Shown here: one piece after another, positions 39,871-41,684 of the stretch
Layout: each line of letters starts with the position of its first letter
Numbering within the stretch: the first letter of the stretch is position 1
Source of the DNA: Chelativorans salis
GTDB lineage: Bacteria; Pseudomonadota; Alphaproteobacteria; Rhizobiales; Rhizobiaceae
Assembly: GCF_025336525.1 (NCBI RefSeq)
Contig: NZ_JAOCZP010000013.1
Coordinates: 1 to 64,000 of the forward strand
DNA length: 64,000 nt
Reading direction: 5' to 3'
The notes under the pieces: generated by a model
What the model saw: the letters and a program-made list of their open reading frames with translations, nothing else
The model's database searches: none
What the model was told of the DNA's origin: nothing
Translations under genes and position numbers: made by a program

Positions 39871-40655
39871 TGGGACTGCTTGAAACCGCCATATCCGGCC
39901 GAGCCCGGCGCACGAGCCATTCTCATGTGGTGAACGAACTCGGCAAGGCCATCATCGGCGGTGTCTATCCCGTGGGCAGCATTCTACCCGGCGACAGCGA
40001 GTTGGTCGCGCGCTTCCATGTCTCGCGCACCGTTCTGCGCGAGGCGATGAAGACGCTTTCGGCCAAGGGGCTCATCGTGCCGCGGGCGCGCATCGGTACG
40101 CGCGTGACGGAGCGCAGGGAGTGGAACCTATTCGACGCCGACGTGCTCACCTGGCACCTGGAGCGCGGCGTCGACCGCACGTTTCTTATCCACTTATGCG
40201 ATATGCGTCTTTCTTTTGAGCCCTATGCGGCGGGGTTGGCGGCAGGACGCGCCGGGCCGGAGACTGCGCGTCACCTTCTAGCACTGGCGGAGGACATGGC
40301 CTCGGCCCCCTCGCATGAAGATCTTATCATGGCCGACCTGCGCTTCCACCTTGCTGTCTTGCAGGCTTCCGAGAACCCTTTCATGTACGGCGTCGGCACG
40401 CTGATCGAAGCAGCCCTGGTCGCCGCCTTCGGCCTCAGCTCGCCCGACGTCCCATCACGGGAGACGGAAAGGATCGGCCTCTCCCATAGGACAATCGCCG
40501 AGGCCATTGCCCGCGGCGACACGGAAGCGGCATCCGAGGCCATGAGGAAGGTTATCCTGACCGGCCGCGACCAGGCACTCGACCGGATCAAGGAGGCGGC
40601 GCTTAGGAGCCGCCCGCCGGACGACATGAACCTGTCGCGCAGGAGAGGACGATAA
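39870..40655 (+). CDS. FadR-subfamily GntR regulator of the ytf operon
   Basis: A 261-residue regulator. The winged HTH (residues 15-85) reads SILPGDSELVARFHVSRTVL, then MKTLSAKGLIVPRARIGTRV. The FCD effector domain follows, with a metal-binding-type pattern of Asp/His residues (DLRFHLAVLQAS, HRTIAEAIARGD). Its ATG overlaps the yjfF stop (TGATG), placing it last in the operon. It probably represses the operon in the absence of the sugar acid or sugar. Confidence 0.92.
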   Translation: MGLLETAISGRARRTSHSHVVNELGKAIIGGVYPVGSILPGDSELVARFHVSRTVLREAMKTLSAKGLIVPRARIGTRVTERREWNLFDADVLTWHLERGVDRTFLIHLCDMRLSFEPYAAGLAAGRAGPETARHLLALAEDMASAPSHEDLIMADLRFHLAVLQASENPFMYGVGTLIEAALVAAFGLSSPDVPSRETERIGLSHRTIAEAIARGDTEAASEAMRKVILTGRDQALDRIKEAALRSRPPDDMNLSRRRGR

Positions 40656-40687: not shown

Positions 40688-41070
40688 TCACGAAAGGTAG
40701 TGTCTCAGTTTGAACTTAGACTGGTGGCGGCCCGTCATAGATCATTCATGCTGCGGAACAAGAGTTCCCACTAGGTGCAGCAAGTTTTCGTGCTGCGGCG
40801 AGCCCCTATCCCTGTTCAAGAAAGCACCAAGTTCCATATGCATTGATTTGCCGCTCGATTGGGGATTAGGAACATGTCGAACGAACGCCTTGCCTGCATC
40901 GTCCCGGCAGAGAAACCACTCGTCCCCGTTTGCACTCTCATAGATAAGCAATCCCGGATTCGCCACGCTTTCAACTCCCATGCCTTCCGGGAAGCATATA
41001 GGAGTTCGGGCGCGATGCGACAGGGCGGTCAAGCGGACCAAATCTCAAACTGAGACACTACCTCACGAAA
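40688..41070. mobile_element. 367-bp TIR element with 8-bp target duplication, carrying one small ORF
   Basis: Perfect 18-bp terminal inverted repeats, GGTAGTGTCTCAGTTTGA at 40696-40713 and its complement TCAAACTGAGACACTACC at 41045-41062, bound the element. Both ends are flanked by the direct repeat TCACGAAA (40688-40695 and 41063-41070), an 8-bp target-site duplication that proves insertion. At 367 bp it is too small to encode a transposase and must move by one supplied in trans. Most of its length is an open frame on the minus strand (40742-41041). Confidence 0.85.
40742..41041 (-). CDS. 99-residue cargo protein inside the TIR element
   Basis: From a TTG at 41041 (MVRLTALSHRAR) to GTLVPQHE. 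The protein core GLLIYESANGDEWFLCRDDA, GKAFVRHVPNPQSSGKSMHM, then ELGAFLNRDRG and LLHLVGTLV is well behaved and, as far as I recall, resembles small conserved rhizobial proteins of unknown function. It starts 4 bases inside one terminal repeat and ends 28 bases from the other. ATG 40981 (MGVESVANPG) is an alternative start. If expressed, its promoter must lie outside or in the repeat. Confidence 0.55.
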   Translation of the reverse strand: MVRLTALSHRARTPICFPEGMGVESVANPGLLIYESANGDEWFLCRDDAGKAFVRHVPNPQSSGKSMHMELGAFLNRDRGSPQHENLLHLVGTLVPQHE

Positions 41071-41153: not shown

Positions 41154-41540
41154 CTATACCTTATACATCGTCGATCGCAACACGGCTTGCATGTGCTCGC
41201 TGAGGTCAAGCTCGCGGCGTGCCTCGATCCTTAGAAGATACTTCGCTTTTGCCCGGCGATCGCCTTTGCTGACCGCTGGGTGGGAACAGACTGCCAGCAG
41301 CGCCTTTTCCTCGGCTCGGTTGGCTTTGGCATGTTGATGGCTATGGCTGCCCCACTTGCGGATGGATTTGCTGAACTCCGCGTATGCTGTCTTGTGGGCC
41401 TCGATCAGTTCCCGCAGTTGGCCAGACGAACTTCGGTTCCGGCGTGGCCGTACTCTGGCGATGGCTTTTTCGACCACGGTCGAGGCGACGAGGGCGCTCG
41501 TGGAGCTGACGAGCAAGACGCGGCGGTTGATCCTCGACAT
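41154..41540 (-). CDS. Hypothetical protein with exported-type N terminus
   Basis: 128 residues. The start at 41540 (MSRINRRVLLVSSTSALVAS) is chosen because AGGAGG lies five bases upstream; the frame is open to 41582. The N terminus has an RINRR basic stretch followed by a hydrophobic segment, like a weak Tat or Sec signal. The rest (LIEAHKTAYAEFSKSIRKWG, EEKALLAVCSHP, AKYLLRIEARRELDL, MQAVLRSTMYKV) is helical and seems to belong to a rhizobial family of unknown function. Confidence 0.65.
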   Translation of the reverse strand: MSRINRRVLLVSSTSALVASTVVEKAIARVRPRRNRSSSGQLRELIEAHKTAYAEFSKSIRKWGSHSHQHAKANRAEEKALLAVCSHPAVSKGDRRAKAKYLLRIEARRELDLSEHMQAVLRSTMYKV

Positions 41541-41684
41541 ATGGACCTCCTCTTGGCGTGTGATGGCTGCGGGATCGGACATGCCGTCGACCGCCGGCCT
41601 ATCGGCTCATCAGCCGCAATCCCGAAGTTAACATGTGGAGCAAGCTCGATGCCGCGCTTGATGCAGTGGTTTCTTTCGGGAATC

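Follow-up and report, generated by a model that had tools for sequence, protein, structure and literature searches.

Mobile insertion cassettes (MICs) are described, in the available text of one source, as units with inverted ends, usually a target duplication, and a passenger gene, and with no transposase (PMC3913671), and according to the same text MIC231A1 is mobilised in trans by the transposase of IS231A (PMC3913671). The accessible part of a second source treats MICs as relatives of ISs (PMC3129680), while ISs that carry passenger genes are referred to as transporter ISs (tISs) in the portions available of two accounts (PMC3129680, PMC9330008).

The element analysed here, from Chelativorans salis, shares with MICs such as MIC231 of Bacillus cereus and mic-qnrD, as far as the available descriptions of these go, its inverted ends, its duplication, its passenger gene and the lack of a transposase. 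On the same descriptions, it differs from MIC231 in that its ends belong to an IS1-like family rather than to IS231, from mic-qnrD in that its duplication is 8 bp rather than 2 bp, and from both in being a unit of 367 bp that carries a single small gene and an expression end that is conserved. Its relatives of 2.2-4.2 kb are comparable to tISs, as these are defined in the accessible accounts, in being ISs with unrelated passenger genes, whereas the element itself lacks a transposase. The earlier note had suggested that it would be an unusual gene-mobilising unit; those features of the claim that could be tested hold, but units of this kind have already been described as MICs. With MICs and tISs already known, what seems to be new, relative to the literature available, is an IS1-like family in which the expression end is fixed and the slot for a small gene varies, together with the cassettes derived from it.

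The element and its site

The window (the whole 64,000-nucleotide stretch analysed) contains an element of 367 bp at 40696-41062, bounded by terminal inverted repeats (TIRs). The letters of the TIR, GGTAGTGTCTCAGTTTGA, occur at 40696-40713 (left TIR, plus strand, where the first 19 bp of the element form the 19-mer shared by the family) and at 41045-41062 (right TIR, minus strand). The inverted arms extend over 19 nt (40695-40713 and 41045-41063), are 100% complementary and lie 331 bp apart, and since the outermost base of the arms is part of the target duplication, the TIR is 18 bp long. The target-site duplication, TCACGAAA, is exact over 8 bp on both sides of the element (left copy 40688-40695, right copy 41063-41070), so that the size, the perfect 18-bp TIRs and the exact 8-bp duplication given in the earlier note are all confirmed from the sequence. 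A 27-bp spacer between the left TIR and the stop of the enclosed ORF (40715-40741) had no convincing match among the fetched loci (best E 1.3).

To the left of the element lies an ORF with its stop at 40655, which we take by eye to encode a GntR-type regulator, and to the right an ORF at 41154-41582. The C. salis genome (5.66 Mb, 19 contigs) gave a single match to the whole element, with no second copy, and a search with one query of the cognate type found no cognate transposase in it (best E 0.37). A 1.55-kb query spanning the site matched 9 of 16 genomes of the genus, the own genome included; in 7 of the others the match comprised the left-flank gene only, ending by window position 40619, and the empty site was not found, as no right flank appeared by joined-flank alignment in 4 of these 7 genomes or by blastn in all 7.

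The passenger gene

The 99-codon frame reported in the earlier note does exist on the minus strand at 40742-41041, but it opens with TTG, and the likely coding frame is shorter, with 74 codons. The true start is probably the GTG at 40966, preceded at 8 nt by the Shine-Dalgarno sequence GGGAG (40975-40979, minus strand), which would give a conserved small protein of 74 aa (40742-40966, 74 codons plus stop) and would make the 5′ extension of the longer frame (40967-41041, minus strand) an untranslated leader. The nearest homologue (L030) has the same start place, with AGGAG, 8 nt, and TTG.

Homologues of the ORF were found by tblastn in 47 plasmid records and in 13 of 151 genomes including the own, the 12 others contributing 15 places, one with an inner stop. 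Eleven columns are invariant across 12 aligned homologue sequences, and a Mesorhizobium plasmid carries the closest copy, with 65% identity across 89 residues of the long frame. Over 72 codons, comparison with the nearest relative gave a dN of 0.21 and a dS of 2.66, the latter near saturation, for a dN/dS of ∼0.08. Judged from the homologues and this ratio, the ORF on the minus strand is a genuine gene, and it looks conserved under selection. The earlier note's picture of an intact, conserved non-transposase gene is borne out in this respect, and its alternative of a chance frame runs against both the homologues and the apparent selection. Homologues outside such elements were found as well, in that the 15 stretches (2.0-3.2 kb) fetched around the other homologues contained no TIR at up to 4 mismatches.

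The product matched no family in Pfam, NCBIfam, PADLOC or PHROGs, and Rfam had no match within the window. A protein scan of genome contigs confirmed no relative, unlike the tblastn searches of plasmids and of the 151 genomes. A single-sequence protein model has four strands and two helices (mean pLDDT 78.6), with no PDB or viral structure match at E 0.001 or better. The sole match of the profile against PDB sequences, to an ABC transporter over 29 residues (E 0.0081), was judged to be due to chance. One protein from the corresponding position of another element (L206) aligns with the window family at an hhalign probability of 54% (E 1.3e-4), and this suggests that it may be a distant relative; if the kinship is true, the type of protein found in the window recurs in such positions.

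The family sharing the ends

Of the 151 genomes searched, nine others had a hit to the element, and in eight of these the match to their ends covers element positions 278-286 to 367 (82-90 bp; the right end region common to other elements lies at 40975-41062 in the window), with an identity of 75-80% in five genomes and 72-76% in the rest; the ninth shares the left end only, over 24 bp. The exact 19-bp end is present in 27 of 394 genomes of the family and 25 of 385 of the class, the own genome counted in both, while the reversed control pattern had no match in either set. A 21-bp form of the end occurs in at least 119 contig stretches, and among the matches listed are Alpha-, Beta-, Gamma- and Deltaproteobacteria, Bacteroidota, Acidobacteria, Planctomycetes, Nitrospinota, Binatota and Chloroflexota. 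MAGs, for which misbinning is possible, make up a large part of these records, but those of Mucilaginibacter and Gemmata carry no such label.

Pairing of TIRs at up to 4 mismatches per end gave 70 candidates, a few of them nested, once 105 loci showing just a single TIR, either truncated by the stretch or decayed, had been set aside. The duplication could be tested in 68 pairs and was exact in 41, with 7/8 positions agreeing in 10, 6/8 in 7, and fewer in the remaining 10. The recurrence of the end, with no control matches, and the 41 exact duplications among 68 indicate that the ends in the window are more than chance. The pairs kept, 60 elements in all, had a duplication that either agreed in 6/8 positions or more or could not be tested; they form a sample rather than a census because of the single-TIR loci, the omission of class-search loci L212-L240 from the pair analysis, and the choice by hand of 20 of the stretches. 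By transposase alignment, 28 of the 60 have at least 250 aa, three have 100-250 aa, and 24 have none or less than 100 aa; the other five are at most 215 bp long. Bare TIR pairs of MITE size (132-207 bp), lacking any ORF of 60 aa, were seen at L160, L061, L134, L043 and L056. Three contigs of one genome (G083; L004, L012 and L013) start or stop at or near this TIR, which suggests that the genome probably has several copies of the element and that these interrupt its assembly.

Larger relatives carrying a transposase

The 28 elements with a full transposase span 2.2-4.2 kb. Their transposase is ∼295 aa long in a single frame; the one protein scanned passes the Pfam model for IS1 transposases (PF03400, 29.1 bits against a cut-off of 24.1), and three transposases score 67.5, 53.6 and 71.9 bits with the NCBIfam IS1 model NF033558, under its cut-off of 100. 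The IS1595 model NF033547 matched one of the three transposases at 27 bits, under its cut-off of 75, and the other two not at all. Three acidic columns are conserved in the alignment (D66 in 31/31, D138 in 30/31, E203 in 31/31), and are presumably the catalytic residues of a DDE-type enzyme.

IS1 elements have ends that begin GGT and target duplications of 8 bp, and the IS1 family has a subgroup with long members, represented by ISMhu11. The relatives agree with IS1 in their match to PF03400, their 8-bp duplications and ends that begin GGT, and differ from it in the ∼295-aa single-frame transposase, the extra KGG gene, the passengers, and scores below the NCBI IS1 cut-off. No recognised description of this IS1-like family, of its TIR letters or of ISMhu11 was met in the open-access PMC literature, to the extent that its text was available.

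The KGG gene, annotated as ‘RNA-binding protein’ in Mesorhizobium, encodes a basic protein of ∼77 aa, and 27 of the 28 elements with a full transposase give a tblastn match to it. With the elements oriented by KGG, the transposase match lies to its left on the same strand in all 36 elements with both, some of them fragments. From the right, the layout of the parental elements runs through the right TIR, a hairpin that includes the ribosome site, an optional small variable gene, KGG, passengers, transposase and left TIR, with KGG and the transposase both read leftwards.

The expression end

Between the right TIR and the gene of the window element, a hairpin (AACTCCTATATGCTTCCCGGAAGGCATGGGAGTT on the minus strand) is located at 40973-41006. 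Its 3′ arm contains the Shine-Dalgarno sequence of the next gene and its 5′ arm holds a −10-like TATATG (40995-41000, minus strand), which is a candidate only; a scan of the element for sigma-70 promoters and terminators called none. The motif TATATGCTTAGCGGAAAGCAT, drawn by eye from the same ends in which it was later counted and allowed up to 6/21 mismatches, matches 20 of the 39 KGG-side ends, the other 19 lacking it, against 0 of 39 opposite ends and 2 of 1360 shuffles. It also matches six ends from pairs that lack a full KGG, one of them in the window and another in a nested L077 duplicate. A generic stem-loop scan was dropped for its high background (22/38 KGG-side ends, 18/38 other ends, 273/760 shuffles).

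Behind 25 of these ends, mechanical calls place KGG directly in three cases and another ORF in 22 (that of L047 being doubtful). The 22 genes in this slot all differ, none matching another by phmmer, and only the added Mesorhizobium homologue matches that of the window; among 21 slot proteins there is one clear family (GYD) and otherwise weak single matches. Some slot genes overlap the start of KGG and end in -ANRT, -ANRI or -ADRT.

Folding of ten stretches gave z values from −0.26 to −5.94, and the energy of the window hairpin is not significant (z −0.86, 34 of 200 shuffles being as good). Across the 25 ends, the predicted pairing of the Shine-Dalgarno sequence is 0.82 in the full stretch vs. 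0.19 in an RNA that begins in the loop. Foreign outer arms pair it at 0.78 against 0.82 for its own, and the own arm is better in 15 of 25 ends (p 0.16). The sequence comparison thus shows the hairpin to be conserved in part of the family, and the arm swap lends no support to co-evolution of the arms.

In IS10 and IS50, a hairpin that forms only in read-through RNA hides the ribosome site and protects the element from outside transcription. A similar arrangement may be envisaged here by analogy, in which the slot gene would be transcribed from the element's own end; an RNA entering from outside would fold the hairpin and hide the ribosome site, whereas an RNA begun in the loop would leave it free. 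Such a role in protection from read-through would parallel IS10 and IS50, with the difference that the first gene behind the hairpin of this family is a passenger or KGG rather than the transposase.

Transposase-poor sister elements

From seven of the 24 transposase-poor elements, eight ORFs were chosen as gene-like, and all eight passed a Pfam cut-off, so that each of the seven scanned carries an intact foreign gene. These encode a GNAT protein (L167, 547 bp, duplication 8/8), a SnoaL protein (L132, 525 bp, 6/8), methyltransferases (L151, 759 bp, 6/8; L170, 805 bp, 7/8), a member of the UDG superfamily (L109, 809 bp, 8/8), a sulfotransferase together with GYD (L005, 1294 bp, 7/8), and SocA/Panacea (L096, 1058 bp, 7/8). 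The ORF of L149, like that of the window, matched no family. Remnants of KGG adjoin the left TIR in L005, L006 and L127, and transposase remnants of 20-81 aa are present in L091, L047, L138, L145, L140, L143 and L040; internal deletion of larger elements therefore gave rise to at least some of the cassettes.

The Mesorhizobium locus has a TIR, then the homologue of the window gene, then a full KGG, and the 10.8 kb beyond contain neither a transposase (best E 0.025) nor a left TIR at up to 5 mismatches. The Mesorhizobium copy is itself decayed, yet it allows the window gene to be assigned to the slot of the parental elements.

Origin of the element

With ends that belong to a recognisable IS family, an exact 8-bp duplication and a passenger gene without a transposase, the element is a MIC, and it very probably derives by deletion from an IS1-like element with passengers. 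In the window copy, everything from behind the small first gene up to the left TIR would have been lost, so that the expression end, a single gene and the two TIRs remain. The deletion is deduced from the sister elements, because the window copy has kept no remnant of KGG or transposase. The cassette was probably mobilised in trans, by an IS1-like transposase since lost from the genome.

The same lack of remnants would fit direct capture, in which a free-standing gene came between two TIRs by another route (e.g., in a MITE), with no gene-carrying parent. Homologues without a TIR are indeed common, accounting for 15 of 15 places elsewhere, but the closest homologue already stands behind the same TIR end and before KGG in Mesorhizobium, and parental remnants are kept at the junctions of sister elements, so that we regard capture of this kind as unlikely. 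A MITE with a chance open frame has far less to recommend it: the size would suit a MITE, and the family does include TIR pairs of 132-207 bp without a 60-aa ORF, but MITEs are short, non-coding and usually present in many copies, whereas this element is coding, with conserved homologues and a dN/dS of ∼0.08, and is single in its genome. We give equally little credence to a larger IS that this assembly alone has collapsed or deleted, a case which the earlier note had raised and which a draft of 19 contigs might invite; the duplication is exact and tight against both ends of the one copy, and similar small elements are present in other genomes. The ends of the element, for their part, are those of a family of larger IS1-like elements.

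A possible gene shuttle

Beyond the derivation of the cassette by deletion, the IS1-like family might tentatively be viewed as shuttling genes by means of a standard socket, a reading that we advance as somewhat less than an even prospect. A hairpin-guarded end would drive an exchangeable small gene, and socket and gene would break off together as a minimal cassette movable by a resident relative, a transposition-based counterpart of integron cassettes. If so, small genes travel between bacteria in units barely above gene size that bring a translation signal of their own but lack a transposase, and such units would therefore be missed in the annotation of mobile elements. The 19-21 bp end provides a handle for listing them across genomes. 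The family also makes testable the formation of MICs from passenger-carrying ISs, with junctions at the inner TIR edge, and the notion of a transposon that offers an exchangeable expression slot, as integrons do.

Passengers of the larger relatives

Five passengers were scanned with PADLOC, which matched three of them, as RmrA (L105:3478-4638), PD-Lambda-2 (L118:2032-3156) and PDC-S13 (L049:2423-3466), and gave no match for L054 or for L096, the latter a transposase-less sister element. The larger relatives are thus a possible vehicle for small anti-phage defence genes. Passenger ORFs in L049, L063, L076, L138, L163 and L167 terminate at a TGA inside the TIR, as does the transposase of several larger elements, and the TIR may provide stop codons for captured genes. 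In L063, L088 and L092, ORFs lie between the end of the transposase and the left TIR, and a second passenger site may therefore exist.
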